Shown: piece by piece, positions 12,194-64,000 of the stretch
Layout of the letters: every line of letters starts with the position of its first letter
How positions within the stretch are numbered: the first letter of the stretch is position 1
NCBI GenBank assembly: GCA_037783545.1
Contig: JBBELK010000064.1
Coordinates: 2,356,001-2,420,000 of the forward strand
Length of the DNA: 64,000 nt
From: Henricia sp. BOLD:AAB3569
Lineage: Eukaryota; Echinodermata; Asteroidea; Spinulosida; Echinasteridae
Reading direction: 5' to 3'
Made by a program: the position numbers and the translations under genes
Notes under the pieces: model-generated
Told to the model about the DNA's origin: nothing
Database searches by the model: none
The model's input: only the letters and a program-made list of their open reading frames with translations

Positions 12194-12502
12194 ACTTTGG
12201 TTTCACTTTTGCCAGGACTTTTGCAAATGATCAACGGATCTGACTGACGCGTGATCATTTGACGGAAACGGTTTTCCAATATCATCGAATGAGCGGTGTG
12301 ATGTGATGTGGTGGTCATGCATGTGCATTTTAGATGCAGACTAGACGTGGCTGAACAACAGAGGGCGCTATTTACAGAATTCTGCACTTGGCAACGTGAT
12401 CAACAACCTGGCACCTGCACCATGTAAACTAAAAACACGATCGAGTTGATCTTTATGATGAGCTGAATCCGCTAAACTATTTATTAATTATAAATAACAG
12501 AA
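12194..12502. promoter_or_regulatory. Presumptive EFCAB10 promoter, possibly bidirectional
   Basis: The 309 bp between the EFCAB10 ATG and the divergent candidate ATG is free of recognisable repeats, unusual in this window. It contains a GGCAAC half-site resembling half of an RFX X-box near 12391. No TATA box stands out. Inference from position only. Confidence 0.35.
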
Positions 12503-12605
12503 ATGGCTGTGCCAAGGCAAGAAGGAGCAAATGAATATTTGGAGAAGGAGAGGGTGCTGGAACTGTTTGATAACATCACGTCACAACTTGTTTTTCATCG
12601 ACCAG
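12503..12605 (+). CDS. EFCAB10: EFCAB10 exon 1 (residues 1-34)
   Basis: ATG at 12503 and donor CCAG|gtcggc. Encodes the first RIIa-like helices, ending FHRP, which exon 2 continues as DDPRAF. Confidence 0.88.
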
Positions 12606-19849: not shown

Positions 19850-20269
19850 GGGTCTTTCCACAGTAAAAGGGGTTGGCAATACAGCCCATATTTTTGAGGA
19901 AATACCTTTGTCTGGTCTCAAAATAACAGAAATAAGTTTAAGTTGTTCTTAGGCCCAAAATAGTTACAAATAGTGTGAGAACATGCCTTTCTAAAAACCC
20001 AGTGTACAAATTTCCAATAAATGCTCGTAACCGGTACGGACACCTGTGTTACATTTTAGGCCGTCCTGGTTACGAGCGTATACTAGAAATTTGTACATAG
20101 GGTTTTTAGAAAGGCATGTTGTCACACTATTTGTAACCCTTTTTGGGGCTAAGTTTTCTCTTCAGAACCACTGAAACTTATCTGTTATATTTTGAGACCA
20201 GACAAAGGTATTTTCTGGAAAATATGGTCTGTGTTGCCAAAATGCCCCCTTTACCGTGGAAAGACTCTT
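19850..20269. mobile_element. Palindromic MITE (GGGTCTTTCCAC family), copy 2
   Basis: Same family as 13996-14429. Flanked by an imperfect ~45 bp direct repeat (19805-19848 and 20279-20325, sharing AATCTTACAAAA and CTCCACTTCTGT-like text), much longer than a normal target duplication. Confidence 0.85.
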
Positions 20270-20581
20270 GTACAACTCTCAATATACATTTGTATGGCTT
20301 CACTCCTGTAAACATAATCTTACAAAAATGAGTAGCAGGGTGCTTTTGAGCAATATTACAATTCTTTCGATGCAGAAATGTCCCCAGTACTAGTCTAGGC
20401 CCTACATGTAGACGTTGTTTTTGTTTTGAACGTGCGTTCGTCCCGAAAACTGATCGCCGGGACAAAATTTGACAAAACGATATGGTGATAGGACTACGAA
20501 CGAGAATTTCGCGTGATTACGCCCTCTCGCGGCAGTCGGGTATCCAACAAATAATGACCGTCTAGGGCCTAGACTACCCCA

Positions 20582-23756: not shown

Positions 23757-26700
23757 CTGCTTAGAGACAGAAACCAACAAAATTTTGAGTTATACTCAAC
23801 CACTGCAAAACATTCGCCTAGCTTCAGAGGCAACATTTGTCGAACACAGTGATGCAACGATACCTGTAATGTTCACGATTTACGATCACAGTTTCAGTGT
23901 TCTAGTCTTTACTCAAACGAAAAGCCGAGAAATATTCACTCACAGTTGTCAATCGACGAGTCGCTCAACTTTCTTTAGGTCCAATTTCTGAGTCCAAATT
24001 TCACAAAATTCACGGTTTCACAAGTCTCATAGAAGACGATAAATCTGTTTAATGAACACTCTGGACTTCCAAGTTAACACAACTTTCAGTTAAATCTGAC
24101 AGTGATAAGAATATTCTGTAAACTTCGTCGTTAGGTAAAAGACGGTTTCAGACGTGCGGACTGCTGTATGGAGCACATGCTTTTCTCAGTACGTACTAAT
24201 CGCCCCATAATTCTTTGCGGTCGTACGCTTCGTATGCAAATGATCTCCACTGGTTAAAGGCAATGTCACATGCAAATTCGTACAAGTAAATCAATATGCA
24301 AATCACACAGTTTTAAAGGGAAAATCAGCACAACAACATTCTGGAAACTACATACCGGCCCCGATCGTACTGGTGAAGCGCGATTAATCACTTCAAAAGT
24401 TTCCAACATGTTTGTAGTTTGGCATAAAGATTATTTCCAAAGTCTAATGTTACTTAACGTCACAAAATAGGTTTACAAATCATTTGTTCTGAAATTTCCT
24501 GCAATGTCCAAGAAAGAAATTTGTATAGTTCCGTTTCGTTATAGAAATGGTTTCATTAAAACTGGTTGATGATTAAAGTGTCAAGCTTGTAAGTCTGATC
24601 AATTAATGAAAACAGATCACGAAATGATTGATTAAACTAGCCAACTTGGTCAATTAACTTAAGGAGTAGTTTCCTGCTCCAACAGCATGCACAGCTTGGT
24701 AACAGGTCTCACTAGGGTGGCCGTCTGAGTCTTCACTTTGGCACTTCTGACAACGCCATGCTTGTCTGGGTGAACGTCTAGAACTAGTCCCATCGGCCAT
24801 GAGTTTCTTGGAGCTCGATCATCTACGATGAGGACCACGTCACCGACTTGTAGGTTTCTCTTCAGTTCCATCCACTTCTGTCTCAACTGAAGGGAAGGTA
24901 AGTACTCTTTGACCCACCGTTTCCAAAAGAGGTCGGCCAAATATTGTACTTGTCGCCAACGTCTTCTGGCATATTGGTCTTCCTGGGTAAACTTTCCAGG
25001 TGGCAAGTCTGGGACTGGTTTGAGCTGCAGTAGTGTGTTAGGTGTAATAACATCCAGGTCAGAAGGGTCATCTGAGGATCTGGTAAGAGGCCTACTGTTA
25101 ACAATTGCCTCCACCTCACACATGAATGTGTTCAACTGTTCGTCATTCCTCGCTGTTCGGATGAACTGCTCGTTCAGGATCGAGTTTAGGATCTTACGGA
25201 TGGTACGTATTTGTCTTTCCCAAATTCCTCCCTGATGGGAAGCGCCTGGGGGATTAAAAGTCCACTTAATGCCACGATTGGCAGCAAAGGTGGTGATGTC
25301 ACCTGTGTTCCACTCTTTCGCAGCTTCTTGCAACTCTCTGTTTGCACCGACAAAGTTTGTGCCATTATCTGAGCGTATCTCTCTCACGCATCCCCTTCTG
25401 GCTATGAACCGGCGAAGCGCGTCGATACAAGAACTCGTTTCCAGTGATTCTGCAACTTCAATGTGTATTGCTCGACTTGATAAGCAGGTAAACACTACAC
25501 CGTACCGCTTCAGGACTGAGCGACCACGCTTGATTTCAAACGGTCCAAAGTAGTCAACTCCGGTGTAAGTAAACGCAGGGTGTTCAGGCTGCACCCGGCA
25601 AGCTGGTAAGTCGGCCATCTTTTGGTTACCGACTCTGGGTTGGGTTTTCTTACACAGTACGCAACGCTTCAACACTGTTTTCACTGAAGTACCAGCTTTG
25701 ATAATCCAATATTTCTGCCTTAGTTCTGCAAGAACGTGGTTTCGACCTTGATGGCCAACCTTCTGATGAGTGTGGGTAATTAGCAAGGCAGACACGTGGT
25801 GGTTTTTAGGAAGAATAAGGGGGTGCTTCATATTTCCAGGGATTGGTGCATTTCGGAGCCTTCCTCCGACTCTTAGCAAGCCATCTTGGAACTCTGGATC
25901 GAGGTTACTGAGTGCACTCTCGCGACTGATACAGTATACTCGGGGTCTACTTCCTGGACTTTGCTTTTCTACATTTGCATTCTGGTGTTTCTGGTTTCTT
26001 TGTAGCAGCTTGATCTCTTTCGCAAATGCTTGCTTCTGAACGAATCCAATGATAGCATTCTCTGCATTCTCTAATTCTTTTGCAGAGAGAAATCTGTCTG
26101 GATTCATGACATGACCTGGGATAGCTTTCGCCTTTAACATCTTTTTCAGGCGCAATATCCAGGCCACAGCTCTTCTCAGCTTGGTCCAGTTGGAGTAATG
26201 ACTGAGCAGTGTTTCGACTGCGCAGGTTTCCTTCTGTGTCAGTACAGCTGAGACATTAACTTCTGTAACTTGTTCAGGGACTTCCGAATCTACGGTCTCT
26301 GCTTGAGAAGCTTCATCTGATTCGGGCCAAGTTTCCTCTCGTTGCCAAAGAAACTCTGGTCCTTTCATCCATTCTGTCTTCTGGACAAGGTCCTTGGCAT
26401 CTAAACCTCGAGAAGCATTGTCTGCTGGGTTCAACTTGGAGGGTACGTATTTCCACTGTTCACAGTCCGAGCCATCACGGATTACAGCGATTCTGTTGGC
26501 TACGAATACTGGATATCTAGCGGTCTCGTTTGCGATATATTTCAACACAGTTTGGCTATCTGTCCAAAAGGTTGTCTTATCGATGTTCATGGTGAGCTCT
26601 CTTTGCATCAAGTCATTTTGGCGAACAGCTGATGTGGCTGCAGTGAGCTCTAACTTCACAATCGTGTGCGTTTTCAAGGGAGCTACCCTAGACTTCGCGC

Positions 26701-29700
26701 TCAGGAACTCACAATGGATTTCATCCTTTTCGTTGGTCAATCGAAGGTATGTTACGGTGCCATACCCATCGAGGCTGGCATCTGCGAAATGATGTATCTG
26801 TGCGTCGACGACCTTGCCAAACCCTTGTGGTTTGAGGCATCGGTTAAGCTTTACTTCGTCTATACTTGGTAGTTGTTTCAACCATCTTCGCCATTCTGCT
26901 TCACTCTTTTCTGGTATTGGGTCATCCCAGCCTATTCGCTCTTGACACAGAGACTGGAGGATCATTTTGGCTTTCAGGACGTATGGAGAGGTTACTCCAA
27001 ATGGGTCATACAGTGAACTCATGACAGAAAGGATGTTCCGTCTTGTGGCCTTTGGGTTAACTTCTTTCATCCCAAACTTCAACTGGTCTGTTTCAACACA
27101 CCACTTCACTCCCAAGGCATGTTCTTCTGGTAGATCATCGTTGAGGTCGAGACTTTTCACCTCTTTGGATCGCTCTTCTGGTGGAATTGCTTTGAGAACC
27201 TCTCGGCTGTTGCTAAGCCATTTGGTGAGATGAAATCCACCTTCATCCAAGGCTTGTCTTATTTCCTGTACCAAATTTATGGCGTCACTTTCTGTTGGCA
27301 ATGACTTTAGAAAGTCGTCTACGTAAAAGTTTAGCTGGATGGCTCTAGTGACCTCTTCGCTGTATTTTTCTTTTGTGTCACTTGCTGTCTTCTTCAGTGC
27401 ATAATTTGCACAGCTGGGAGACGAAACAGCTCCAAACAGATGGACTGACATTCTGTATTCTTCTATGTCAGCATTTAAATCACCATCTGGCCACCAGAGA
27501 TAACGCATCATGTCACGGTCTTTGGGGTCAACTCGCACCTGGTAGAACATTGACTCAATGTCTGCGATGACAGCAATTGGCTCTTGACGCCACCGAAGGA
27601 GGACACCGTACAGTAGGTTTGTCATGTCAGGTCCCTGAAGAAGTTGGTCATTGAGAGAGGTACCTTCGACTTTTGCAGGACAGTTGAATACCACTCTGAT
27701 TTTGTCAGGTTTTCGTGGATGGTAGATTCCATGGTGGGGAACGTACCACACAAGGTCATCCTTTCTTGACTTAGCTTCTTGGGGCACCTTTTCTGCATAT
27801 CCTTTGTCTACTAGTTTTGCCATGAAGTCAGTGTACTGGTCTTTCAGTACTTCATTCTTCATCAATCTTTGTCTCAGGCGTCCAGCGTATACTTTTGCCT
27901 GGAGACGGCTGTCGGGCAACTTCACACTTCTGTTACGTAGTGGCAGAGCCATTTGATAATGGCCATTTATCTTGATCACGGATTCATCCATAATCTGAAG
28001 GAATCTCTTGTCTTCTGCTGACAGGTTCTGTTTGCCATCACTTAGCCTTTCAGCAAATTCCATGTTCACATAGGCTTTGAACTGTTGTTCTAGGTTATCC
28101 TGGCCATTCTGAAGAACAACATTATCAATACGGCAGAAGTTAACATTGACTTCATTTTGGTTCTAGTGCAGTAAACTTCTTGCAGTAAAGAATGGAATGG
28201 TTGGTTCCTTCGCCACAATGAAGACATGGCACTTTAGCTGCCCTGTTCTCTACAGTGGTTGAACTCTTGGGTCTTGTTTGTCTATACCTTTCACTGGAGT
28301 GGCTTTCTACTGTAGTTGCCATGACTGTCTTTGCGGTCACTGGCATTACTTTCCGTGACTTTTGGAGGGCTGATGCTGACACAAGTTTGCTTTCTTTGCT
28401 TCTTTGCTGATAACCCAATCCAGCAATTCTTGGATCATTTTCGTTGCGGGACTGTTGACCCACGAACCGCTCAAAATCTTCAAGTGTTGGAGAGCGCAGC
28501 TTTTCTTCTCGGTATTTTCCCACTTGTCGTATCCACTGTTGCTGTAGCGCAGTGGGTAATTTTGAAGCTAGAATTCTGAGAAATTCGTATCCATCCATAC
28601 TGCTCATTTCTGAATTACTACACTTCGCATTGCAACAGTTCACCAAAAAGATGGCAAACTTTCTGAGTGCGACTTTGTCACCAAGTGGGATTTTTGGCCA
28701 TTCTTCAGACTTGGTCTTGTACGCAGCTGCTAAAATGGGTGGCTGCCCATAATCTCTTTTCAGCAGCCATTGCGCTCTCTGATATCCTTTTGCTGGTGGT
28801 TCTATCATAGGACACTCTTTAATCAGCTCATGTGCCTCTCCTTTTGTGTATTTCAACAGCAGCTCTAATCTTCTGGCTGCATCTTTTGTTTTGTCTTCAA
28901 CCACGTATTTGAAATTCTTTATGAAGCTGAGGTAAGACAGTACATTAGTGCCATCAAAGGGGTCTAACTCTGCATTTGGGAGGGCAAATTCTTTCTGGTT
29001 TTGAACTATTTTGTCAAGGATTGATGCCATTGTCGGCTGAGGCAAGGCAGAACTTTGTTCACATGTGGACTGGATGGCATTATTCTTTGGCTTGGAGCTC
29101 TGCCTTTGTGACTCCAACGTGATGTCAACATTATTCACTTCTTTTTTTTCAATATGAAAAGGACTTGCAATAGGATTCAGTGAGCTCTGTGGTTCTTGCG
29201 TGCCTTTCATTATGTCTGCTGACCGGTTGACGTCAAGTGAAATGCCTTTCACTACTTCTTCACAAAGCTTTGCTGATGTTTGTGACAAGACATCAACATT
29301 TTCTTGTTCCAACATTTTGGAAACTGCTCTGGCAGCATGGAGCTCTGCATTTATCTCAATTTCTTCTTGTTCTTGCTCAATTCTCTTAAATTCTTCTTCT
29401 ATTTCTTGCCGGCGTCTTAGGATCATGACCCTTTCTTGTGCTCGGCGGATTTCTTCTTCTGCCTCTTCTAAATGCAATTTTCTCTCAAGGAGGCGTTTGC
29501 GTTGTTCCAATCTATTTCTGTGTTGAATTGCTGCTGACTTTGCAGCCAACTCAACTTCACGCTGTCGGTTTTTGAATGCAAGTGCTGAAGTCGTGGTTCT
29601 AGCAGATACACATGAGGCATTGCTGTTCAAATGTCCGGCTACAGAAACACTGTCATGTGGCTGAATCTCAACTCCGGCCCCGGTATCACTGTGTGCATGT

Positions 29701-32700
29701 AATGACAGCTCTGGCATCGACATGGCTGAACGGGCACTCACAGGGCTTTCATCATGAGAAACTTTATTATCTTTGTGAAAGGTTTCAGAAGTAGCCATCT
29801 TCGAATAGTTTATCTATTAATATGCAACTTTTACTCTGCATAAACTATTTGCAAGTACATGTACTTCTATCTGTTGCACGAAAATACTCTTGCCCAATAT
29901 CCGGACAAACGACTGCTGCACTGTTGACAATTACAACTTGCCCAATATCCGGACAAACTTCCCCGATACTCCTATCTTGTTTTCAGTCACAAAATTTCAC
30001 AATAACTTCTATCGATGTCTGGCGTCTTTTACTATGTAATGTTCACGATTTACGATCACAGTTTCAGTGTTCTAGTCTTTACTCAAACGAAAAGCCGAGA
30101 AATATTCACTCACAGTTGTCAATCGACGAGTCGCTCAACTTTCTTTAGGTCCAATTTCTGAGTCCAAATTTCACAAAATTCACGGTTTCACAAGTCTCAT
30201 AGAAGACGATAAATCTGTTTAATGAACACTCTGGACTTCCAAGTTAACACAACTTTCAGTTAAATCTGACAGTGATAAGAATATTCTGTAAACTTCGTCG
30301 TTAGGTAAAAGACGGTTTCAGACGTGCGGACTGCTGTATGGAGCACATGCTTTTCTCAGTACGTACTAATCGCCCCATAATTCTTTGCGGTCGTACGCTT
30401 CGTATGCAAATGATCTCCACTGGTTAAAGGCAATGTCACATGCAAATTCGTACAAGTAAATCAATATGCAAATCACACAGTTTTAAAGGGAAAATCAGCA
30501 CAACAACATTCTGGAAACTACAATACCCGTTTCTAAGCGTGCACATACTCAAGCACGTTGTTGCCATGAAATAGTGGTAATGTTAGCACAATTTGTTTGC
30601 TACAGTAAGCATGCATTTTCAGCTAACGCAGTGCCATGAAATTGGCTGTAGGTCTTAAAACCACGTATTAATACTCACACTGGTCCACTACTTGCCGTTC
30701 CACTTGAACCGCTTGATACATCGGAATGCACAGTCAGTGGAGAGTCTCTGGATGAGACGCAGCCTTTCATACTACCGGTGCCTGATATCAGCTGCCAGCT
30801 GTGTGATAGTATACAAATATCACATGGTTTGAGGGTGGATAGTCGATATTAGCTCCCCGAGGTATTGGAAGTTGACACGCTAGATCTCGAGGCAGAAGGC
30901 CGAGAGAACTAGTGTGTCAACTAACAATACAGAGGAGAGCTAATATCGACTATCCACCCGAAATGAACCATGTGATATTTGTTTTACCATACCTCATACA
31001 TATTCTTCCCCATTTTGAAATCACTGACTGCAGGAAAACGATAAGTAAAGTTTTGCTTGTGCATATCTTTTTCATTCAGCTGCCGTGCATGCACTCGTGT
31101 TGTACCAGTGCGGTGCTGTCGCCCGGGTGTTTCGTAAAGCGCATGCATAGTGTACTAGTCCCGAGCTGTCAAGAAAGAATGCTTCGCAAAGCGCCTGCGC
31201 AGTGTACTATTTCCCTGCCAGCCGCGAGTAGTTTACTACGCTTGAGCCTTTAGCATGCGCGTGGATAAACAGCAAAAATAATTACTAGCACATGGCGGGA
31301 CATGGACCACTGAGAATGCGACTCTCATTTATGAATATGTATGAGGTATGGTAAAACAGAACATATCGTCGGTCGCATCACGAAGTGGCATATCCGCGAA
31401 CGCGGGGGTAAAACTTTGTTTTGAGAAAATCGCTTTTGAAGTTGGTTACTTTTTAAAACTCCAACTTCGCCGGTTATTCCATGAAAAGTTGTCAGTCTTT
31501 TTAGGGGATACTTTTTAGTATGAGTTAAATGACGTAAAAATATACTTTTATATTGTATTGATTGTCTAATTAAAGAACACTTTAGCTCAAAACATATTCG
31601 TCACTTCGTGAAAAAGCAAAATGCCGACCATGCGTGATTTGCCACAGAATTCGCCCCCTGTCTGTATTTCACTGCGCGCGTAATATTTACAACGTCGCCC
31701 TGGTGCGTGGCATTTTCACGAAGAAAAGCAATTCATGCACATACCATCTTTTTCAATGAGTGGCGTATTGCGATACGCCACTTCGTGAAAAAGTAAATTT
31801 GCATACCATTAGTTACGTGGTTTTAGGCAACTTCTGTAATTAAAATAATACAAATTGTCAAGTCTCGTAACTTTGCATAAATGTTAAGGACACCAAATAA
31901 AGTCAAATTATACCCAAAACAGAAATTGCTAAAACAATGCTTTTTTTTAACGGATACGTCACTTTGTGGTGCACCCGACGATATGAATGCAAGCTGAAAT
32001 ATTGATTTTATTATGTAAACCACAAGGCAATTAAAACTTGAAAATTCAGCTTTTTTGGTAAATTAAACAGTAAAATTGCTTGTAATAAGTTATCAAGGTA
32101 CATGTACATGTACATGTGCATAGGGAAGGATTTTCACCTGCCAGTCGAAGAAGCTGCCGACTTGGCCTGAAAAAAAAAATATCAAAAGTAAGAATGATCA
32201 TTTATATTGGGGAAATTATCAAAAACAAAATGGCAAAACTTTTGAACAAAAGCTCACTCGATGTGTGTGAGATTATACAGACTTTATTCACGCATTAGAA
32301 TGGTTTAATTGTATCTCCTGAATCAGTTCTATGGAACGCAAACGGCCGATTGAAAAGGTTCCAGTTACGTATGCATTCCGAATCTCGCTCTGAAGACAAG
32401 GATTGGAATGCATAAATGTCTGGCACCTTTCCAATTAGTAACTTTGGACTCTATAGAACTGATTCAAAAGGCTCAATTAAAGGCCCGGTAGATGATCTGT
32501 TTTTGAGCGATTCTGCGGATAAAACCATTATAAATTTAAAGAAAGACATCAACAAACTCATCCGAAGAAATTTCAGCTTTTGTCAAATGTACCACGTTTA
32601 AAAAAACAATAAAAATCCATAGGCATTTTCCTGGTCTTGGCGGGGTGTTTCAAATATTCGTTCTCAGTTGATCGGGTACTATATGTGGCTTGCGTCATGC

Positions 32701-35700: not shown

Positions 35701-38700
35701 TTCAGGGCCAGAAAAAAATCCACTATCATAACTGCATGTATGTACGTACGAACTACCCCTAGAACTATGGGGGATATACTCTCCCCCATAGGTAATGTTG
35801 TTTTTTTCCAATATGGCGGCGCCTGAACTTTAAGATCGGACCGATACGGTTTAAGCTAGCGCAATAATCCGCTGCCCAATCGCCACCAAACTCCGTCTGA
35901 TAGTTCTTGAGACACTCACCTTGCGTGTGTCTACGGAATTTCGGTACCATTTGTCCACTAAATTCTCCGAAAATAATGTTGGGAAATGAACGGGAACATG
36001 TGCGATGCATCCACGTGCATGATCGATGCATTCGGTAAAAGCCGGATTCTCCGGAACTCCCGGAGTTGCCGGAACTACTGGGACAAAAAATAAATCCCAG
36101 CAGTTCCGGGAGTTCCGGAGAATCCGGCTTTTACCGAATGCATCGATCATGCACGTGGATGCATCGCACATGTTCCCGTTCATTTCCCAACATTATTTTC
36201 GGAGAATTTAGTGGACAAATGGTACCGAAATTCCGTAGACACACGCAAGGTGAGTGTCTCAAGAACTATCAGACGGAGTTTGGTGTACTCTAGTAGCTCA
36301 TGGTGGTGTTGTATGCAATTTAATGTCCAGACCTAAACTCTTCAAGAATCCACTAATTGAAGGTCCAGGAACAATATTTGGTTGGTAACACATTTCCCAC
36401 TGACGGCGAAATAGCTGAAATGGCCACGCCCTTTTTTTTGGGCCACGCCCTTTTTGAGCGAAGTACTACCCATCGTAGGAGGTTGTCCGACCACTCAAAA
36501 TGTGCGCAATGGCCACATTATGGGGGGTCAGTAATACATTTTCATATCCAAAAGTCAATGGTTTTTAAGATAATTGCCAAAAACCGATTTCAGCATGTTA
36601 CGCACTACAATTGTATAATACCACCAAGGCCACAACATATGTATGACACTTTATCATATTACCTGTTGTACCATTCGTGGGAGCGCGTGTGGTCTAGTGG
36701 GTATGAAGCGGGACTCCCAATCAGAGATTGTGGGTTCTAGCCCCTTATGACTAACGCGCCTGTGTCCCTGGGCAAGGCACCTAATCCCAGTTGCCTCGTC
36801 AACACAAGCGATATTTGGGAAGCTGTTAAGGGGAATGCCACAATCTAACTGCTGGCCAGGCGCTCAACCCTAACAGCAGCCACCTAGTTGAAGCGAAATG
36901 GTTCTGGCGATTCCCTGATGGCAGCGGTAATATTGGTAACAGCGCTAGGAGCACCCCGCAGGGTGGACATGTGCGCTATAAGAAATTAAGAATCCACCGT
37001 TGTTATTATTATTATTATTTTGCATATTGTTCCTATTTTGGAGTATTTGGATTTCTACACTTTTTGCCTTTACTACAGCCACAAAACGTCACACATTTTA
37101 TGTTCCTTTCTCTGCAAGTGCACGTTTTGGTACTCATACATGATGTTGGGCATTTGCATGGAGGGGGCAGGTCATCGGGCCTGCACGATACTGGCGGTAT
37201 CACTGGTGTTATGCCAACATCCGTTGCTTCATACCCATACTGGAGTGGATCTGGTTTGGTGACTGTAGGAGTTGGGGCTTGCAACCACATCTTACACTGC
37301 AGATATGCTCGGTTTATGTGTTCTCGTAGCGTTGATGAACAGCACACAAGCTGGTTGAAATCCAGTTCTTTCTTGAAGTTGTGGTACTGCTCCCATCGAT
37401 ATTCATCGAAAGTGGAACAGTCGGTCTTCTTTAATCTAGACACAAGGAACTTTTTAGCATTGCTTGTTATCTGTGGTGACAGTTCTTCTACACCAAACCC
37501 TTCCAGTAGGGAGAGATCCATAGATGCTTACAGGCCAGACAGCTTTGGACCCATCTTGCTGGTACTGTCGCAAACGCTAACAGCATGAATGGATGGGAGA
37601 CACGACACCAAACCGTTGTCCAGTTGATCAACCAACAGGTGGACTGGTACAGTTCTTTGTTTACCGGTTAGTACCAAGCTTCACGTACAGCTTCTGTAGT
37701 TACCAGGTTTTGTTGAAGTTGAAGTTGAGGTTGACAAAGACATCTGTGTCAGGTGAGTCAACCAAGACTGACTGAACCCCGTGTTTCACAACACCATTGA
37801 TCATTAATATGGAACATGATTCTGTCGTCGGCTTCTTCTTGGTTGCTTGAGAGCTCTGCGATCTGTGTTTCAGTGCCAGCTAACAGTTTCCTGCATTCAC
37901 CCCCATATACTCCTCCAAAGAAGATCTCCTTGTCCGACTCGACATTCTGCAGCATCCACTTGAAGACATGTATACTCCTGCAATCGAACTTTGTTCAACA
38001 TTGAGCTCCAGAGCATATCAAGATCGACAGGGAGTTTCTGATTGTCAGACCTAATGGTGATAGTAATTTGTTCTGAAGAACTTCTCTGTGCCCGTTCCAT
38101 TTGCTTGATTGATGATTTTTGATAAACATCAAAAATAATGTCTATTGTGGTGGACTCGGAGCCTGTAGCAAGAATGCTGTTGGAAAGACTCTCAGCCAAT
38201 TCCCAGAATGTGTGAAGGCCCATCTTTTTCTGAATGTAAAATGGCATCAAATTGAAGAAGCCCGATAAAGCCTCCTTAGCCAGGGAACTTGTCAGTCAAC
38301 CTCCACAGGAGACGAGGAATGTAAAGAGTGACGCTCAGATGACAATAGTGGACTTCATGGCACTTGTGCGTAAACTACCGATGAAAAAGATGGGCCTTCA
38401 CACATTCGGGGAATTGGCTGAGAGTCTTTCCAACAGCATTCTTGCTACAGGCTGCGAGTTCACAAGAATAGACATTATTTTTGATGTTTATCAAAAATCA
38501 TCAATCAAGCATTGAAATGGAACGGGCACAGAGAAGTTCTTCAGAACAAATCACTATCACCATTAGGTCTGACAATCAGAAAATCCCTGTCGATCTTGAT
38601 ATGCTCTAGAGCTCAATGTTGAACAAAGTTCGGTTGCAGGAATATGTCTTCAAGTACAAGTGGATGCTGCAGAATGTCGAGTCGGACAAGGAGATCTTCT

Positions 38701-41700
38701 TTGGAGGAGTATATGGGGGTGAATGCAGGAAACTGTTAGCTGGCACTGAAACACAGATCGCAGAGCTCTCAAGCAACCAAGAAGAAGCCGACGACAGAAT
38801 CATGTTCCATATTAATGATTGTGTTGTGAAACACTGGGTTCAATCAGTCTTTGGTTGACACAGATGTCTTTGTCAACCTCAACTTCAACTTCAACAAAAC
38901 CTGGCAACAACAAAACCTGGCAACTACAAATACTGTACGTGAAGCTTGGTAACCGGAAAACAAAGAACTGTACCAGTCAACCTGTTGGTTGATCAACTGG
39001 ACAACGGTTTGGTGTCGTGTCTCCCAGCCATTCATGCTCTCAGCGCTTGCGACAGTACCAGCAAGGTGGGTCCAAAGCTGTCTGGCCTGAAAGCATCTAT
39101 GGATCTCTCCCTACTGGAAGGGTTTGGTGTAGAAGAACTGTCACCACAGATAACAAGTAATGCTGAAAAGTTCCTTGTGTCTGGATTAAAGAAGACCGAC
39201 TGTTCCACTTTCGATGAATATCGATGGGAGCAGTACCACAACTCCAAGAAAGAACTGGATTTCAACCAGCTTGTGTGCTGTTCACCAACGCTACGAGAAC
39301 ACATAAACCGAGCATATCTGCAGTGTAAGATGTGGGTGCAAGCCCCAACTCATGCAGTCACCAAACCAGATCCACTCCAGTATGGGTATGAAGCAACGGA
39401 TGTTGGCATAACACCAGTGATACTGCCAGTATCGTGCAGGCCCGATGACCTGCCCCCTCCATGCAAATGCCCAACATCATGTATGAGTACCAAAACGTGC
39501 ACTTGCAGAGAAAGACACATAAAATGTGTGACGTTTTGTGGCTGTAGTAAAGGCAAAAAGTGTAGAAATCCAAATACTTCAAAATAGGAACAATATGCAA
39601 AATAATAATAATAATAATAATAAGAACGCTGGATGCGGCAATAGGGCGACATTTCGGGAAACCTTTCCCAAGAGACCACCGAAATTTCGGAAAGAATCAC
39701 TCAAATTGACACCTTATTTTTTTACCTAAAGCTTCCAAAAATGGTTTCAGACCTAAGAGAAATGGTTCTAGACCTAATAAAAATGGTTTTCGACCTTAAA
39801 AAATGGTTTTTAACCTCCACAATACCTCCAAAACATTAGGGCGACACCAAACTGTCGCCCTAATCATCAAAACTAGACATTGTCGCCCTAACATAGCTTT
39901 TTTACACACAAACTGTCGCCCTATTGCGTAATGCAGAGAAATAATGGTGGATTCTTATATAACGCACATGTCCACCCTGCGGGGTGCCCCTGGCACTGTT
40001 ACCAATACTACCGCTGCCATCAGGGAATCACCAGAACCATTTCGCTTCAACTAGGTGGCTGCTGGCCAGGCGCTTAACCCTAACAGCAGTTAGATTGTGG
40101 CATTCCCCTTAACAGCTTCCCAAATATCGCTTGGGTTGACGAGCAACTGGGATTAAGTGCCTTGCCCAGGGACACAGGCGCGTTGGTCATAGTGGGGCTA
40201 GAACCCACAACCTCTGATTAGGAGTCCCGCTTCATACCCACTAGACCACACGCGCTCCTACAAATGGTACAACAGGTAATATGATAAAGTGTTATACATA
40301 TGTTGTGGCCTTGGTGGTACAATGTATTATATACAATTGTAGAGCGTAACATGCTGAAATCGGTTTTTGGCAATTATCTTAAAAACCATTGACTTTTGGA
40401 TATGAAAATGTATTACTGACCCCCCATAATGTGGCCATTGCGCACATTTTGAGTGGTCGGGCAACCTCCTAGGATGGGTAGTACTTCGCTCAAAAAGGGC
40501 GTGGCCCCCAAAAAGGGGCGTGGCCATTTCAGCTATTTCGCCGTCAGTGGGAAATGTGTTACCAACCAAATATTGTTCCTGGACCTTCAATTAGTGGATT
40601 CTTGAAGAGTTTAGGTCTGGACATTAAATTGCATACAACACCACCATGAGCTACTCTAGTAGTGGCGATTGGGCAGCGGATTATTGCGCTAGCTTAAACC
40701 GTATCGGTCCGATCTTAAAGTTCAGGCGCCGCCATATTGGAAAAAAACAACATTACCTATGGGGGAGAGTATATCCCCCATAGTTCTAGGGGTACGTACG
40801 AACGTGTGCACATCGACTTGCCAGCACATGTACAGTATGTACATTGACAGTGTGCAATGTCACTACTGCTGTATTATGGCCGGGATACAGACATACTGCA
40901 TGCAGGCAAATTATGTACATAGGCTGTACACATACATGACATACATGGCAAATGGCATATCTGGACATCGTTGATCAGTGAGACAATTTTCAACGTTTTT
41001 TTGGACTTGAAGAGTTGAAAATAATATTTCCGGCCGTTTATTTTTCCGGCCTGGAAAAAGGCTTTGCCGGATTACTTTGTCCAAAATAAGAAAAAGCTGG
41101 AATTCCGTCTATAGCCGAAAGACTGGCATTCCTGATAGTGGCACGTAGGGGGCCTTTAGTGTCACCTTGCCCAACTTCCCGTGCCCTTCCCGGATTTTCT
41201 TGGTGAGAACATTTGGTTTGGAGCCCAAACCATGATCGATCATAACAGAGAGACACCGGAATGCACTGGGGCCAACCGGGATGCAAAACCAGAAATGTAT
41301 GACAGGGTACTTGCCGAGCCTCACAACCATGGACTTGCCATCTTAAAGTTCAACAAGCTATACACACTGGACTGTATGGCCCTTCTCTCCTATTATTCCA
41401 CCCATCATACCTGAGAGACCCATTGCCATATGACTCGCTGGTTCTACTATCCTCATGACTTCCTCCCGTGCAGATGAGGATGGGTGAGCTAGTACTGCTA
41501 ATACTGGTCACGCTAACGTTACTGTTGAGACTAGAGTTACTGCCTAGGTGCTGCTTGTCAACATCTGCAAGAGGGTGGAGAGTTATGCTCTGTCAAGTCA
41601 CAAATGCGCAAGATGCAATCAAGCTATTCAAATGAAATGCTTGTTAAAGATAGCTGGTTTTTATGTACAGGCCAAAATAGGCAAGTAGTGTTGGAAATTC

Positions 41701-44700: not shown

Positions 44701-47700
44701 CATAGCCGTGGGGAGGTTCGAACCTGCAACTCCAAGTTTTCACCTATGATTGCGAGTCAATGACCTAAACTGCCCGGCCACGGCCTTTAGGTTGAATTGT
44801 TTTAGCAGGCCATTTCAGAAGCGGGCAGATTGCAATGATCTACAAACTGTATTGATAGTCAAAATACTCCATCAAAGTAGGGCATCTGGGTCTTTCTATA
44901 AATTAGGGGTCCAATGTTGGTGTCCCCCGTTACATTTTACATCTTGTTTTTGTAAATTCAGGACACATTCTTTAAATACTTTCCATCCCAAAGAGCGAGT
45001 ACATAAAGTACAATTCATACAATATGGTTTAACAGACATTTTAATGATTTTTGTACCAAAAATAACACATACATGTATCAGGTGTAACGGGGGGCAACAA
45101 ATGTCACACTCTTGGACCCCTAATTTATAGAAAGACCCGTCTGCACGTTGAGCAGAATCCCAGTGGAGCCAGGTTGTTTTTCACTGCATCCACATTTCCC
45201 AAACTCCTGGACATTTGTCTACATATCTATCGAATCAATTCACCCCGGCAGTCCCTGGGTTATTATCCCTAAAAGAAATCACCTATTCAAAATGTATTTT
45301 CATCAGTTTCATTTGGTGTGCCTAAGAATGCATTTTTAAATCTGGGAAAACAGTCCCACAACAAACGTCTGAATACTGTTTTTCTTTTAAAAAGAAAATA
45401 TAAATATATGCATCCTAATACTTACATCCTCTCCTTTGTCTAACCTGTCAGACAGATTGTGCCTGCAAGACATAGGAAAAATAGAGTATGTCACACGCAC
45501 TGCTTACATGGGGAAAACACGAGGAAACAATTGACTTTTTCCAAGACTGTAAAAACAGACAAAGAAAAAAGAAAAAGCCGGAATTCCGGCTATAGTCGTT
45601 AGACTGGCATCCCTGGGCTCAACAGACTGCCGAAGTGAATACGTCATCTGAACCGTGTCCCTGTGCTTTGCAATGGCCATGATAGTTTAGAGCCAATTGC
45701 CATGGCAACCCACGTCACACTTCGGCTGTCTATTCCAAGTCGGGGACTTCAGTCACGAATAGGATGTGCACAATACAGAGAATCAACATATGTTTCCATG
45801 GACATGCATCATTGCACAACATTGTTCATGCACCTACCCAAACAGCATCCAGTCATAAGCTATGGTGAGATAAATAACTTCAGCTGCACTAAGGTTCCTA
45901 TGGGCCATGCCATCCTGTCAATATGAACAATAACACACTGTGGTCAAATAAGTTATCAGGTACGTACGACACTATTTAATTTTAAAAGTGCCTCAAATGC
46001 CTTACTTTACAGATCATCCGAGTACCAATGAGTTTAAGTTGAGCATTTCCCAAAAATGTTCACATCACAGATGCTGAACCTAATGGAATGCACCACATAG
46101 CAACAAAAATTTAGTCTGGTCAAGTGGATACTAGTACATCTGTACACCAGATGCTGTTCATGCACAACACACAAAGGGCTAATTAGAATCAAGCTTTGAT
46201 CAAAGTCAGTAACTCAATTTTGAAAAGCGAGGAATGAATATGCAGGGATGCCAGTAGCTCTTACCTTCAGGGCCGGAAAAAAATCCACTATCATAACTGC
46301 ATGTATGTGTGCACATGGACTCGCCAGCACAGTATACTGTACAGTATGTACATTGACAGTATCAGCGCAATGCAACGGATGTCAGTACGTATGTGATCTA
46401 ACCACTGCTGTATGGATACAGCGCCCTCTATGTACTTCTGATCGATAGTCTAGTTTCGCAATACATTAGCCGTGAATGATTATGGCCGGGATACAGACAT
46501 ACTGCATGTGTGCAAGTCATTGTGAAAACGTGCTACGTGCGTGTACGTACATGTACATACATGGCATATCCGGACACCGTTGATCAGTAAGTGAGACAAT
46601 TTTCCACGTTTTTTGGGACTTGAAGAGTTGAAAATATATTCTCCTTATATTTCTAGCCGTTTACTTTTCCGGCCTAGAAAAAAAGCTTTGCCGGATTTCT
46701 TTTTCCAAAATAAGGAAAAACCGGAATTCCAGCTATAGCCGGAAGACTGGCATCCCTGGTATATGAAATTCTTAAGGAACTCACCGCCCATAACGTTAAC
46801 CTGAGTAACGAGACAAAGAGTGGTGTGCGATCCCAGCCGGATATACAGTGGATCAGAAGGCCTGTGTCACCTGTATACAAATTTAATCATTTACGGTAAA
46901 GTGACGATTTATTCTGAGCTATGAAACTTGAATTTCATTATTGAAATGTGGGGTACCGTGGCCGAGTGGTTTGGGTCATTGACTCGCAATCATACCTGAA
47001 AACTTGGGGTTGCGGGTTCGAATGTTCCCCCGACTGCGGTACCTGTGCCCTTGAGCAAGGCACTCAACCACACTTGCTCCATCCATTGGAAGGGATGTAA
47101 AGCCGTTGGTCCAGTGTGTTAGGTAACAGGAACGCACTTTAAAGATCTGAGAGCATTCTTTCGTGAAGAGCAAGGGGATTTCCCGGTGTCTCTGGCCATT
47201 TCTAATTTCTAATTCTTTATGGGTTTCCTCACGCTTGCGAGTGACAGTGCAATGGGCACTTTAGAGGAATCCTTGGTATGAATTCCAGAAAGAAATAATA
47301 ACTTGCCGAACCCTTCATAAATTTACGAAGGATTTTAACAGTTGCATTACACAAAACACTTGCGACGGGTACACGTTACATGACAAGCTAGAAATTGACA
47401 ATTTTAACATTTAGGGTCATGTCCACTAATTCATGGAATTGCCATTTAAATAAATAAATAAATACCCAAATGACTTCCTGAACCAAGACATGACTATACC
47501 TTCTTTGACAAGATGGAGGAAGAGTTTTATGTAGTTCTGGGTGAGTGTCACAAGATCCCATGACTGTAAACAAAATCAAATGAAAATCCACATTTTCATT
47601 TCTCACATTTACTCATTTTGGTTAAAATTCTCAATGCATGTTTACAATTTTTACCTATATCTAAAGTTATTAAGGAATTTTAAATTGTCTTCAAAAACGA

Positions 47701-50700
47701 GGGTCTCGGTGCTTTCTTTTGTGGAAAAATTTGCAAATGAAACGACGCGTGGCGTAATGCAATGGCTCAGCATCTGAAACGAGGCTGCCAGTGTCAATTT
47801 GAAATTTGTCAATAGTGTTAACATTTTGAGGGAAAAACTAAGGGCACAAATAATGTCCTTGACAACCGCAGCCGGTAAAACAGCGTATATCAATCTTACC
47901 CTGTAGTTTTTGAAGTCGATTCCTAATCTACTGGAAAGGTTGTTTGGAATGCTTAGACCTGCATCTACAAAATCCTGCAAGATCACATAAGAAAAACAAA
48001 GGTACCGGATACTGTAAGAAAGCTGCATACTTCTACTTCCGATTTGTTTACTGCACAAAAATCGGACAAACATCGAATGTAGCCTTCCCGCGTCAAACGC
48101 CTGTATTGTGAAAAACCCGGGAAAGGATTCCACTTATTCTCCTATATTGACTCAATAACCACCAAAACATGTTAATATTTTAAAGGGAAGAGAATTTAGG
48201 AGTGAAAACATTCAACAATTTCCTTGAAAATACTTAAACTTTTTCTGCCATGTTCTACAGACTTAACACACGCCATCTCAGTGAAGTCATTTGAAAAAAA
48301 CAAATTTCCAAAATTGACAACATACATGTACCAATATCCCAAACTTATTGTGAGTAGTGCAAGTCTGATTCGAGTAAAAAAAGCTCAGCGTGAATCCGCA
48401 CTTAGTGAGGTCTTAACAGCAATGCTAACCTGACTCCAATCATAGTACAGCCCTTCAGCATTGAAGCCATTTTCCCTGTAATCTCGGAAGAACTCACATC
48501 CCGGGTAAGGCACAGAAATCACATTGAAATCGGCATACCTTCGTTCCTTGTCTACTTTCTCTGATGATGTGACACTGAAGAACAAATCAGATATGCAATG
48601 ATTTTATCATAAGTGACCCGCTCTAGAAAAAGGTACCATAACGTCACGGAGGCTTGGTCAAGTTTTGCGACCAGAAGAAGAAATCTGTGGCAGATACAAG
48701 CTCATTAAAATACAAAAACACAAAGGAAATTCCAGGCGGTATCTGGGCACCGCCAGGAATTTCCATTGTGTTGTTGTCTTTCAATGAGTGTGGATTTGCC
48801 GCAGATTTCTTATGGTGACAAAAACTCGATCTAGCCTGCGCGACTTCTGCTACCTTTTTCCAGAGCAGTCCGCCAATAATTTAACTCATGGTAAGGTGTA
48901 GACTTGCCCAAGTTTGACTCCCGTGTTTGGTCCGCAAAGCGCAGTGCACAGCACGCTCTCTGGTCCGGCGGCAGAAGAAAAGAGATTTACCAAACACGGG
49001 AAGTAAGACTTGGGCAAGTCTAGGTAAGGCGCAAAAACGACCGCATAAAAATGACATTTTTCACAGGGTTGCTGATGTCTAAAATACAAAGTATTTTTGT
49101 TGTTGTTAAAATAAATGAAAAAATCGTTCCGAAAAAAAAAAATCAAATTTGCCGAGAACCATGGACAATATAACATTAAAGCCTCATTTTTGATTATTTA
49201 AATCCCGCAGCAAATTCCATACTCACTTCATGCCAAACTTGACCTTCTTGTTTTCCACCATCAGGTCCGAGATGCAGCCTACAGATAGCATCTTAAGTAG
49301 CTTGATGTCCTGGCCACGGACTCGATCAAACAATGCCCAGTCATTACTTCCTGTACCACCGCTGGTTTTAATAAGCAAAGAATGTGTTATAGATAGGTTA
49401 TAATACACACTTGTCATCTATCTCTGTGGCCCTGGGTTGAGTGCCTTCTGGGCCAGTATGTGGATTGGGTTCTTAGTCGCAGCTGTATGTCTTCCTTTAT
49501 GCCGAGTGTTCCGTTACGACACAAGAGATTCATAGATTGATCTTAGGCCGGCTTAGGTTTGCTCAGTTGTGTACCCAGGCAACACCAAGAGGAAAAAAAT
49601 AGGTTTATTGGGAAAACCTGATTGAGTACACCCCTGTGCCTCTTGGCATCTGCCCAAAGTGTCAGAGGTTTGGGTTTCAAGTCCCGACGAGGAGAAAATT
49701 ATTTTTCTCTCAACCGATATTTTGTTGTTGTTTTTCAATGGTGATTAGGCACCATTATCAAATAATGCATTCCTTAGAAGGTGGCGTACTGTTTTCCTCC
49801 CACCTCTAAAACTAATAATTTCTCTTTGCAGATTTCTTTAGGCTTACATTTATGAGCACTACATGTATGTGGGTCTTTCCACAGTAAAGGGGGCATTTTG
49901 GCAACACAGACCATATTTTCGAGGAAATACCTTTGTCTGGTCTCAAAATAAAAGAAATAAGTTTCAGTTGTTCTGAAGAGATTACTTAGGCCCAAAAAGG
50001 GTTACAAATAGTGTGACAACATGCCTTTCTAAAAAGTCTGTGTACAAATTTCCAATATACGCTCGTAACGGGGATGGACACTTGTGTTACATTTTAGGCC
50101 CTCCCGGTTACGAGCGTATATTGGAAATTTGTACACAGGGTTATTAGAAAGGCATGTTGTCACACTATTTGTAACCCTTTTTGGGCCTAAGTTATTTCTT
50201 CAGAACAACTTAAACTTATTTGTTTTATTTTGAGACCAGACAAAGGTATTTTCTGGAAAATATGGTCCGTGTTGCCAAAATGCCCCCTTTACCGTGGAAA
50301 GACTCACGTATGTACAGTGCTATTGTGGAACCCTTTATTTGGTTACTACATTAAACGGTCAATCAGAAGGCGTATGGTCAAATCTACACCGTATACAAGT
50401 CATGGTTTTTAATTTTTCCCAAGATGAGTCCCAAGTTGAAAACAAAAAGCACATGAATACCTTGTAGTTGAATTTTGTCGTGCTAGTATTTCTTCATTAT
50501 TGGTTGCTTGGCTGCCTAAACTCTCCCCACCTGATTGCAAAGGAGAGCAATACTTTAATTGATTTAGCATCAACAGAAAGAAATTACAGTGAGTAAGCTT
50601 ATATTTTGCTCAACCAGCTCAGCTGGTAGAGCATCTGCCCACTATAGTAAGAGGTGAAATCCCGATAAGGTCCATATAATTTTTCTCTCATCCCAAGTTT

Positions 50701-56700: not shown

Positions 56701-59700
56701 GAAAGGCATGGCCCAACATTCTTTGCAAAATGTGTTAGAGGGAATTCGCTTTTTGCATGTTTCTTATGAATAATGTTTTGTGTACTGACATACTTCCTTT
56801 CACATGCACACTTGGTATCCACTTGACCAGATGAATTTCTTGTTGCTACGTGGTGCACACTGCAGGTGTGAAGTACATGTACAGAATCAATACCGTGTTC
56901 ACCGAACAGTAGGAGAGAATGGCATTTAACAATTAGATTGTTGGTTGCTAGGCAATGGCGTGTACCATGTATCAACAATAGCATAGTACGATATGCAACA
57001 TTCTAAACTTTGAAGGTGAAGAATTCACAAGGCACCAGCCAATATGCAAATGTTACACGCAAAAGGCTAATTGAGGCCAAGAAACAAGAGATGGGTCCAT
57101 CCCGGTTACGAGGGTACATGTATATTGAAAATTTGTACACAGGGTTTTTAGAAAGGTATGCTGTCACACTATTTGTAACCCTTTATTTTGAGACCAGGTA
57201 AAGATAGTTCCTTGAAAATATGGTCTGTGTTGCCAAAATACCCCTTTACTGTGGAAAGACCCAGATACATGTACCGCTGTGGAATCTCGTAAATTTATAA
57301 AAGTACTGTTTATTCCGCTTTAATATAAGGAACAATTTTGGTTGTACTCCTTTGTCCTTATTTTCACACCTGATAATACAAGATTCTTGTTATAACAAGG
57401 TAATCTGCAAATGCTAGTAAAAACCCAGTTTTAATAATTCAACTCACTGAGTATTTATAGTCTTTTCCAAACAGAGCCAGGCATTTCCTTTCGATAAGTT
57501 CTACCTGAAAGAAAATAGAGAAATAAGAAAACACGCTTAAAGGAAAATATCCAGATCAGATTTTTGAATCCCCACTTTTCCCATGGGTGTTGAGATTTTT
57601 ATACAGTCATATTTTTCACATTAGGGAGGTTTAAATGCACATAACACGCGAACGTGAACACGAAATGGCTTGATCACTTGGTCTAGCTTTGAGTATTATT
57701 ATTATTATTTCTTTCTGGTATTCATACCAAGGATTCCTCAATAGTGCTCATTGCACTGTCACTCGCAAGCGTGAGGAAACTCATGAAGAATTAGAATTAG
57801 AAATGGCCAGAGACACCGGGGATGATCCTCCTTGCTCTTCACGAAAGAATGCTCTGGGATCTTTAGAGTGCGTTCCATTACCTAACACACTGGACCAACG
57901 GCTACTTTTAGAAGGCTAAAAGTGTTGTTTTGGACGTTTTATATTGGGACGTTATCATTTTCTATATACACTTTTAGCCCCTTAACATTTTAACCACCTT
58001 CGATCGTGTGGACCGTTCTTACACGCCCTCAAGAGGCCAGATACACATGTGTAATATCGTACCGTAAATTCCAAATCAGACATTTAAAAACTCACCATCG
58101 GGGTCCTTGTAATCTCAAGACTTTTGTACCCTTGTCGTTCACTGTCCATGATGACTCAAACATCAAAAAAGGATGACAGGGAGCAAAATCTGGAGTAAAA
58201 TCGACAAATTTGGACAGACGGGAGACTTGACACGTCATGCATGCTGACTTCGCTACCCACGTGATCGCGTCAAAAGGAAAGTAGTCCCACCAACGCGGAT
58301 GGATTTTGTTTAGCCTAGATCTGCCCCCTGTCTATGTGCGCTACGCTGCTCTCGCTCATATACAACGCGTGGGGAAGTTAGTATGTGGACAGGGGTCCAG
58401 TCTAGGCTAAACAAAATCCATCCGCGTTGGTGGGACTACTTTCTTTTTGACGCGTCTCAGCATGAAGTCTGTGTACCACGCTGCCTGAAAATTTTCGATT
58501 TTACTCCAGATTTTGCTCCCTGTTATCCTTTTTTGATGTTTGAGTCATCATGGACAGTGAACGACAAGGGTACAAAAGTCTTGAGATTACAAGGACCCCG
58601 ATGGTGAGTTTTTAAATGTCTGATTTGGAATTTACGGTACGATATTACACATGTGTATCTGGCCTCTTGAGGGCGTGTAAGAACGGTCCACACGATCGAA
58701 GGTGGTTAAAATGTTAAGGGGCTAAAAGTGTATATAGAAAATGATAACGTCCCAATATAAAACGTCCAAAACAACACTTTTAGCCTTCTAAAAGTAACCA
58801 ACGGCTTTACATCCCTTCCGAAGGATGGAGCAAGTGTGGTTGAGTGCCTTGCCCAAGGGCACAGGTACCGTAGCCGTAGGGAGGTTCGAACCTGCAACCC
58901 CAAGTTTTCACCTATGATTGCGAGTCAATGACCTAAACCGCTCGGCCACGGTACCCCACGAGTAAATCTTAGAACTGACGAAAACCAAACTCCACAAATG
59001 TGACTTTCGTGGCAAGATAACTCTTTTGCCGTGACCAAAATTCGAACCCGAGTTTTGAGCCCTCCTAAAGATATGACCAGTGTTCCAGCCATTTCGCGTT
59101 AACGTTTGCTTTTTACGTGCATCTACCGGTAAACCTCCCTATTACCATTCTGAAATTTCGTGCTCCCAATCCGTACATGGATATGGTCAAAAATCCACCA
59201 AAGTTTAGTATTAAAACTAATTTTATCCGGTTACATAAAGCAGTGCAGTGATTACACCAAATTTGTTTCTTCCACATCCAAATTGGAGATTACAAAATTC
59301 CTGCCTTCTTTCCATGGATAGTGTTTTAGGGTGGTATTTTATAAGATTGTTAGGTTAGAATGAAATCAGGAAAAATCTGGACAAGCTCCTTTAAAAAAAT
59401 AACAAACGTGTTAAATCAGAAAATGGTGAAAAGAGAATTGTGAAAATAAAAATCAAGCCACACAAAATGGAAAAAAAAGTTAACCTCCTATGCATGCTAG
59501 GCTAGGGACTTGGAAATCTGTGATATCATCTCTTGTGCACTAGAAATATTTATAGGCCTATAAACATGACAAAGATACGCATCATGAAAAATGCACTTTG
59601 AAACATCTTAACATTGTGAAATTCAAAAAAAAATGTCTTAGTACAGTTGGTTTTGTCTGAAGTGCTATGGTCTTTGAGAAATGAGTAAAACAATTAGTTT

Positions 59701-62724: not shown

Positions 62725-62802
62725 AATGGTGGCAGCGGTGGGATAGTGTGTTCAGCCAAACGTCGGTGATCATTTCAAGGAGAACAAAATAAATAGGAGC
62801 AA

Positions 62803-64000
62803 ATGACAGATTCGACTTCAATTGAGGCGTCCGAATTTACAGGAGGCGCACGACGCACAATGAGTGCGGACAAACAAGGAGATTGCATGGGCACCTGCAC
62901 TCGTGAGCGAGCCATGCAGGAATTAAATGAGAGATTTCGCCTCCTACAGAGGGAGACGGAGCAAGCAGAGGCCCAAATGAAACAGCTTCTGGTTGCAACT
63001 TCGAGCTTGACTCACGTTAGGCCTGGTGAGGCCGACAAGGAGATAGAGTTTAAGCGAGGCGCAAGAGGCGCCATGGAAACCACAGGATATGGCTCTGTGT
63101 CAGAACACTCAAGCGTGATGCAGAGGACCAAGTCTGAGGCGCTACAGCAGAGCGCCATTACGCCAGTGAGGGTGAATGAAGATAGAACGTGGAGGCCGCT
63201 GGCGAGGTCCACGGAACAAAGGCAGTCAAAGGATGACAGCGAACTCAATGCTGCGCATCCGACGGACGCAAGAGGCGCAACGAGTACTCCAGATGTGGAG
63301 TTAGCAATTGACGGGATGGAGGACAAGGAGGCCTCTCCCGATGTCCCATGGGAATTAAGGAGGGACGCGATATTTCGTGGAAAGCAGCAATGGAAGGAGA
63401 GCTTCGGTTATGACGTGAGGCGCCCAAGGATTGTTCCAGACAGATTCAATGGAAAGCAACCTAGGGAACACTTCGAGGCCTGTAAGCAGGTAAACGGTTG
63501 GAGCGATGAGGAGGCCGCGGCCTATCTTGCCGCTAGTCTCCAAGGACCGGCCGTGAAAATCTTGACCAGTCGTCAAGGAGAGAAAAGGGATAGACGATTT
63601 AGTTACAAGGAGCTAATGGACTTACTAACTGCGCGTTTTGGTCCGGGACAGATGGCAGAGAATTTTCTCATGGAATTGAGAAACCGTCGCCAAGGCCCAA
63701 AGTAAACGTTGCAAGAACTCGGCGAGGCAGTGCGGGAACTTGCCGCCCTGTCTTACCCGGAACTCTCAGATGAGAGTAGAGACAGATTGGCCCGGGGTCA
63801 TTTTTCTGATGCTACCACCAGACCATAAATGAGGAACAGAAGAATCCAGAGACACCTGCGCCTCCGGAGAGGCGACGGGACACACGGGTCTATAGGCAGC
63901 GTGTGAGGAGAGCTGCAAACCCGGAGGACAAGTGTTATAAGTGCCAGGAAATGGGGCACTTCGCCAGCGCCAGTGATTGCCAAGGAAAAACGCTGCCGGG
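62803..64000 (+). pseudogene. gag: Ty3/gypsy-type Gag, disrupted and cut by window end
   Basis: The first 300 codons (62803-63705) contain an N-terminal coiled coil (residues 33-66) and, from residue ~195, a retrotransposon gag domain (RFNGKQPREHFEACKQVNGW..EEAAAYLAASLQGPAV..L..RFGP). A TAA at 63703 interrupts a still-homologous frame (LQELGEAVRELAALSYPELS), another TAA lies at 63826, and the zinc knuckle near 63933-63980 (CYKCQEMGHF...DC, two residues longer than usual) is in a different frame. Pol would lie beyond the window. This copy is dead for Gag production. Confidence 0.8.

Follow-up and report, generated by a model that had tools for sequence, protein, structure and literature searches.

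The 5-kb palindrome at positions 35754 to 40794 of a 64,000-nucleotide stretch of the sea star Henricia sp. genome (contig JBBELK010000064.1, 2,356,001 to 2,420,000; hereafter the window) is, with little doubt, a nest of two elements, a 4.4-kb inverted-duplicated transposon lying inside an older and smaller miniature inverted-repeat transposable element (MITE). The inner element, at 36286-40661, spans 4376 bp and has ends of its own as well as a 3-bp GTG duplication. The outer element is a palindromic MITE of ~665 bp with ends TACCCCTA, now in two parts (35754-36285 and 40662-40794). The 4.4-kb palindrome had already formed when it inserted here, and it moved as a single unit.

Structure of the palindrome in the window

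The near-perfect palindrome reported in the original prediction is real. Its inverted ends TACCCC...GGGGTA (35754 and 40794) are perfectly complementary for 133 bp, beyond the 41 bp first noted, and a 9-bp direct duplication, CGTACGAAC, flanks both outer ends. Alignment of one half against the other gave 2000 matches, 69 mismatches (96.7% identity) and 962 gap columns, with pairing that extends to about 38230/38383 and leaves a 152-nt centre. The same tRNA-like repeat and gene fragment are present in both arms, as had been proposed. However, the left arm contains an extra ~400 bp (35884-36285) that has no partner in the right arm and folds on itself into a hairpin with 189-bp arms and 24 nt between them, starting where the perfect outer 133 bp ends; this unpartnered hairpin does not fit a single unit. 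The right arm has an additional 317 bp of its own. The features are as follows.

35745-35753: 9-bp duplication CGTACGAAC belonging to the outer MITE, left copy (flank comparison; other MITE copies have different 9-bp duplications)
35754-36285, plus strand: left 532 bp of the outer palindromic MITE, terminal 133 bp and hairpin (genome copies)
35884-36285: internal hairpin of the MITE, arms 35884-36072 and 36097-36285 (inverted-repeat pairing)
36283-36285: 3-bp duplication GTG belonging to the inner element, left copy (MITE read-through and family ends)
36286-40661: inner palindromic transposon, 4376 bp (family of palindromic copies with these ends)
36286-36303, plus strand: CT tip of the inner element, TACTCTAGTAGCTCATGG (end comparison)
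36286-38230, plus strand: left arm of the inner element (half alignment)
36673-37017, plus strand: tRNA-like short interspersed element (SINE) segment, left arm (skipped by the alignment of the relative L079, which runs to 36672 and resumes at 37018; a related copy lies at 504-576)
37033-38250, minus strand: 5'-truncated nuclease gene, left copy, broken (gene-fragment comparison)
38231-38382: palindrome centre, single copy, part of the right gene copy (same centre in copies L073 and L072)
38383-40661, minus strand: right arm of the inner element (half alignment)
38252-39587, plus strand: 5'-truncated nuclease gene, right copy, broken (gene-fragment comparison)
39629-39945: right-arm-only 317-bp stretch (common to the right arms of copies L063 and L073)
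39946-40260, minus strand: tRNA-like SINE segment, right arm (half alignment and L079 comparison)
40644-40661, minus strand: AG tip of the inner element, reading inward TACTAGAGTAGCTCATGG (end comparison)
40662-40664: right copy of the 3-bp duplication GTG (MITE read-through and family ends)
40662-40794, minus strand: right terminal 133 bp of the outer MITE (pairing and genome copies)
40795-40803: right copy of the 9-bp duplication CGTACGAAC (flank comparison)

The outer MITE

Copies were searched for in the window's own genome assembly (740.7 Mb, 2104 contigs). At least 83 matches were obtained with the first 501 bp of the MITE, frequently with both strands matched at a single place (40 of 880 candidates were scored). 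The sample comprised 25 other distinct copies, L007 and L027 having been dropped as repeats of L003 and L006; most are palindromes of about 630-680 bp, and some are truncated or carry inserts. A script scored a 9-bp duplication at 16 of the 25, 13 perfect and 3 with one mismatch, and because L021, L023, L025 and L028 have one common flank repeat, this corresponds to about 13 independent sites. Joining 35754-36285 to 40665-40794 gives a sequence to which the closest MITE copies are 98-99% identical, and the point at which the window copy is split is uninterrupted in 24 of the 25 copies, L016 being truncated there. Thus, the TACCCC ends and 9-bp duplication that had been attributed to the mobile palindrome belong to the older MITE, which has copies elsewhere with an unbroken split point. 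GTG, the duplication left by a second insertion, stands on both sides of the split.

The inner element and its family

The inner end (36286-36660) gave at least 41 genome matches (40 of 55 candidates were scored), many of them inverted pairs 2.2-4.8 kb apart. Ends were compared in 20 rows, the window included, from 20 genome stretches, with L072 left out. The 4.77-kb copies L070, L071, L076 and L077 (two on contig C490, the others on C79 and C1245) have identical flanks and are, to judge from these, one insertion multiplied together with its surroundings; counted once, they leave 17 distinct insertions. Target duplications of 3 bp were found in 13 of these: GTG in the window, TCT (L060), GCA (L061), TAG (L062), ATG (L063), TAT (L064), TGT (L066), GTA (L067), TTC (L069), ATG (L070), TTT (L073), TTA (L074) and ATT (L075). 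The mobile unit is therefore 36286-40661 rather than 35754-40794. Ten of the 17 insertions measure 2.8-3.2 kb, and most of these have arms of about 1.0-1.2 kb around a single-copy middle; the arms of the window copy are longer, ~1.95 kb. The inverted repeat takes up 26-99% of the half in 16 palindromic copies, compared with 7% in L079, a two-ended relative described below. The family has the long, length-variable terminal inverted repeats (TIRs) of foldback-type or TIR-extended elements and, as in foldback-type elements, lies at separate sites with target duplications (13/17).

A 10-bp duplication, TACTCTAGTA, was also considered for the inner element. In the window these 10 bp are repeated perfectly in direct orientation, yet their bases, in a CT or an AG version, fall within the ends of nearly all compared rows, the exceptions being L065, whose left end is lost, and L068, which begins AACT. 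It was rejected because these bases lie inside the ends, whereas the 3-bp repeats lie outside them in 13 of the 17 insertions.

A single 5041-bp transposon with TACCCC ends and 9-bp duplications, inverted-duplicated and moved whole, would account for the perfect 133-bp outer ends and the clean 9-bp duplication. It is nevertheless extremely improbable, since TACCCC ends form ~665-bp copies elsewhere that lack the inner 4376 bp, and the inner part forms copies of its own, with 3-bp duplications, that lack the TACCCC ends. Other genomic copies with the same ends and duplications, whose absence was to have refuted the original prediction, were looked for, and either element has them.

Movement as a palindrome

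Six arms from three copies (the window, L063 and L073, picked as seemingly the closest) were compared over 1234 shared columns. The left and right arms of the window differ at 66 sites, compared with 15 and 16 between its left arm and the left arms of L063 and L073, and 21 and 23 between its right arm and their right arms; L063 and L073 differ from each other at 19 sites in the left arms and 28 in the right. Informative sites that join like arms across copies number 46 for L063 and 48 for L073, while those that join the two arms within a copy number 0 and 0, indicating that the palindrome formed before its arrival here and was transposed as a unit. The centre is common with L073 (99.7% over 310 bp) and L072 (95.5%), and the right-arm-only 317 bp is also found in L063 and L073. 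In a tree of 34 ends over 330 bp, each window end is nearest to the like end of L063. The CT and AG ends cluster in this tree, in which 25 of 31 inner branches are open, with 5 changes where shuffles average 11.6; of 500 shuffles, 1 and 0 gave a value as low. The original prediction, that an inverted-duplicated product then transposed, was thus right about the kind of event and wrong about the limits of the unit, its ends and its one-sided source.

These data bear on two further explanations. A normal two-ended element could have entered the MITE and turned palindromic in place afterwards, and both intact tips and the 3-bp duplication are compatible with such a conversion. However, the centre, the right-arm insert and the left/right differences recur at other insertion sites, so that conversion between unlinked copies would be needed to reproduce all the like-arm sites; we regard in-place formation as highly unlikely. 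Inverted duplicates are a known failure of assemblers, and a mirrored or misjoined read could in principle yield a palindrome, but here the arms differ in substitutions and private insertions, and the same palindrome stands on other contigs with different flanks and duplications, which makes an assembly artifact scarcely credible.

Probable origin from a two-ended transposon

When the homologue P0001 was used as the query, two genome copies with the long gene were found, on C118 and C622. The copy on C118, L079, is 6007 bp long, with ends TACTCTAGTAGATCATGG and TACTAGAGTAGCTCATGG, CAA on both sides and a terminal repeat of about 226 bp. It lacks the SINE: it aligns to the window at 36672 and 37018, with the segment between them missing. 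A tandem repeat with units of about 48 bp (L079:651-796) lies upstream of its gene. The source had been proposed to be one-sided; this is unsupported, since a two-ended 6-kb relative exists and both of its distinct tips are retained in the palindromic copies. L079 and all 16 palindromic copies scored have a CT tip at one end and an AG tip at the other, with L061 reading GG (L065 and the three duplicates were left out of the scoring).

The sites at which the two L079 ends differ were compared in 13 of the 16 palindromic copies, L059, L068 and L074 not being used. At sites 5-6, the CT ends match the CT end of L079 in 13 of 13 copies; at sites 132 and 203, they match its AG end, again in 13 of 13. 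Sites 12, 23 and 27 are the same in both ends of the palindromic copies, and sites 147-187 have mixed or new states. At sites 227-243, beyond the L079 repeat, the left half has right-half sequence, with single odd bases in L062 and L070. This pattern argues that the CT tip is original, whereas the rest of the left half was copied in inverted orientation from the right half, the switch falling within the repeat. The tip was thus retained, and the point of entry of the inverted copy would lie in the terminal repeat of an element that had two ends.

At this site, the ~665-bp palindromic MITE inserted first, generating the 9-bp duplication. The 4376-bp palindromic derivative of a ~6-kb transposon, which had formed earlier, later entered the right half of the MITE at GTG, producing the 3-bp duplication. 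The making of the derivative may have run as follows. In a two-ended transposon encoding a long FEN/EXO1-like protein, a SINE probably landed beyond the 3' end of the gene; an inverted copy of the 3' half would then have taken the place of the 5' half. It would have joined within the terminal repeat, so that the outermost bases at the left were spared. A plausible means is gap repair in which the template was switched by way of the terminal repeat. Having two good ends, the derivative could have been mobilized in trans by an autonomous relative, and the family spread with varying arm length.

Several observations weigh against parts of this account. Nine of the 25 MITE copies have no scored 9-bp duplication, and 4 of the 17 inner insertions have no 3-bp duplication (none in L059, L068 and L078; left end lost in L065). 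The like-arm test covers those copies that seemed most similar to the window. L079 matches the window copy at about 93-95% in the larger alignments and is a relative, not a proven parent; its own gene is interrupted. Since a single two-ended relative was compared, the states at sites 132 and 203 are unpolarized and might be private changes of L079, and as the other terminal-repeat sites are shared, mixed or new, the switch is placed only somewhere after site 6 and before the ~226-bp repeat ends. L078 (L078:343-3364) is palindromic (33% of the half), with shorter arms, and the SINE is missing from both. A single origin of the whole family is thus unproven and possibly mistaken: such palindromes may have arisen repeatedly, or the SINE may have joined an early palindrome later and been copied across. 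The Foldseek matches to the protein model are also weak (best E value 2.3e-4, template modeling score 0.25 by query), 3 of the 472 having an E value of 0.001 or less.

The gene carried by the family

The L079 gene consists of four open pieces of 174, 647, 579 and 148 amino acids (aa), and the gene fragment of the inner element is about 94-95% identical to it. The long product is predicted, from the Foldseek fold match, to adopt a FEN/EXO1/XRN-like nuclease fold; the single-sequence model of the 647-aa open reading frame (ORF) has a pLDDT (predicted local distance difference test) of 34, too low for the model to be of use. Pfam and NCBIfam searches of the gene pieces and relatives gave sub-cutoff matches only, among them a weak one to DUF6589 (best E value 0.0049; 2 of 18 proteins). 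A sequence search of the PDB returned nothing for query A1 and one chance-level match (E value 0.23) for query A3, and no relatives were confirmed in viral contigs. Eleven of 46 homologues were named from Nymphon striatum, at 71-88% identity over part of the query. Distant relatives on C702, C720, C832, C346 and C409 have 29-31% identity and open frames of 1576-1633 aa.

Other features of the window

ARAGORN and Rfam found no tRNA and no RNA family in the window; the SINE label therefore rests on appearance and on the related dispersed copy at 504-576. The palindrome had been placed in an intron of a conserved gene. This was not confirmed, as no far-side exon was identified. The minus-strand ORFs at 46677-46886 and 48388-48603 resemble MTMR14 exons, as judged by eye (HCISGWDRTPLF and PYPGCEFF); Pfam gave no match for the second.

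A retrotransposon-like element with long terminal repeats spans 23865-30334; its 300-nt repeats (23865-24164 and 30035-30334) are 100% identical, and they enclose two minus-strand ORFs of 1167 and 553 aa that look BEL/Pao-like by eye. In the GC-rich last 2 kb, a plus-strand ORF of 302 aa (62797-63702) has a subthreshold Retrotrans_gag match (E value 0.011). An ORF at 14315-14635 has the C-terminal EF-hand of EFCAB10 (Pfam PF24548; E value 6.3e-10), and a possible earlier EFCAB10 exon was noted by eye at 12494-12670. An inverted-arm repeat family is represented at 13975-14427, where it overlaps the EFCAB10 ORF, at 19873-20274, at 49855-50321 and, as a partial fourth copy, near 57120-57247. A further foldback occupies 57900-58799, with 312-nt arms that are 99% complementary and a 276-nt spacer.

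Comparison with known systems

The Academ superfamily is characterized by an XPG-type nuclease and 3-4-bp target duplications. The inner family and L079 make duplications in this range, and the protein has a fold match to EXO1/FEN1/XRN, although fold likeness alone does not establish membership. The likeness is to Academ as generally described, and the family hint is the DUF6589 match below the cutoff.

The 9-bp duplications of the outer MITE (16/25) are of Mutator-like length. Tm1 Mutator/Foldback elements likewise have inverted-repeat ends and 9-bp duplications, and a nested insertion is described for them too (PMC3169594).

In architecture, the closest known counterparts of the inner element appear to be TIR extension of the Galileo type and Mu killer. 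Galileo, a Drosophila element of the P superfamily, has 2RT copies, the longest of which has arms of 1,260/1,241 bp with 95.2% identity (PMC3573991). As in these copies, internal sequence has been recruited into terminal repeats, the element is nonautonomous and arm length varies. Galileo has 7-bp flanking sequences, whereas the inner element makes 3-bp duplications; the ~1.95-kb arms of the inner element also differ in carrying a gene fragment and a SINE, and its two-base tip difference marks the retained end. The Galileo authors, too, consider that closely spaced inverted repeats may recombine, for instance following excision (PMC3573991).

Mu killer of maize, for which an ~4-kb hairpin RNA is proposed (PMC3440606), is a partial inverted duplication of a transposon's own gene with two terminal-repeat copies, and the inner element has the same makeup. 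Unlike Mu killer, it is a multicopy mobile family. The predicted RNA fold of 37889-38820 is nearly complete, at -651.9 kcal/mol compared with an average of -249.8 across 20 shuffled sequences, as is expected of any palindrome. It is conceivable, though we consider it unlikely, that the palindromic family is a mobile, multicopy counterpart of Mu killer, in which long hairpin RNA from copies in transcribed introns would silence the parent genome-wide; if so, the origin of foldback elements would be tied to transposon self-silencing. Within one genome, the steps that lead from a two-ended transposon to a mobile palindrome can be traced, through a whole-gene relative, SINE insertion, tip-sparing inverted copying and spread as a unit, and two nested palindromes can look like one giant element.
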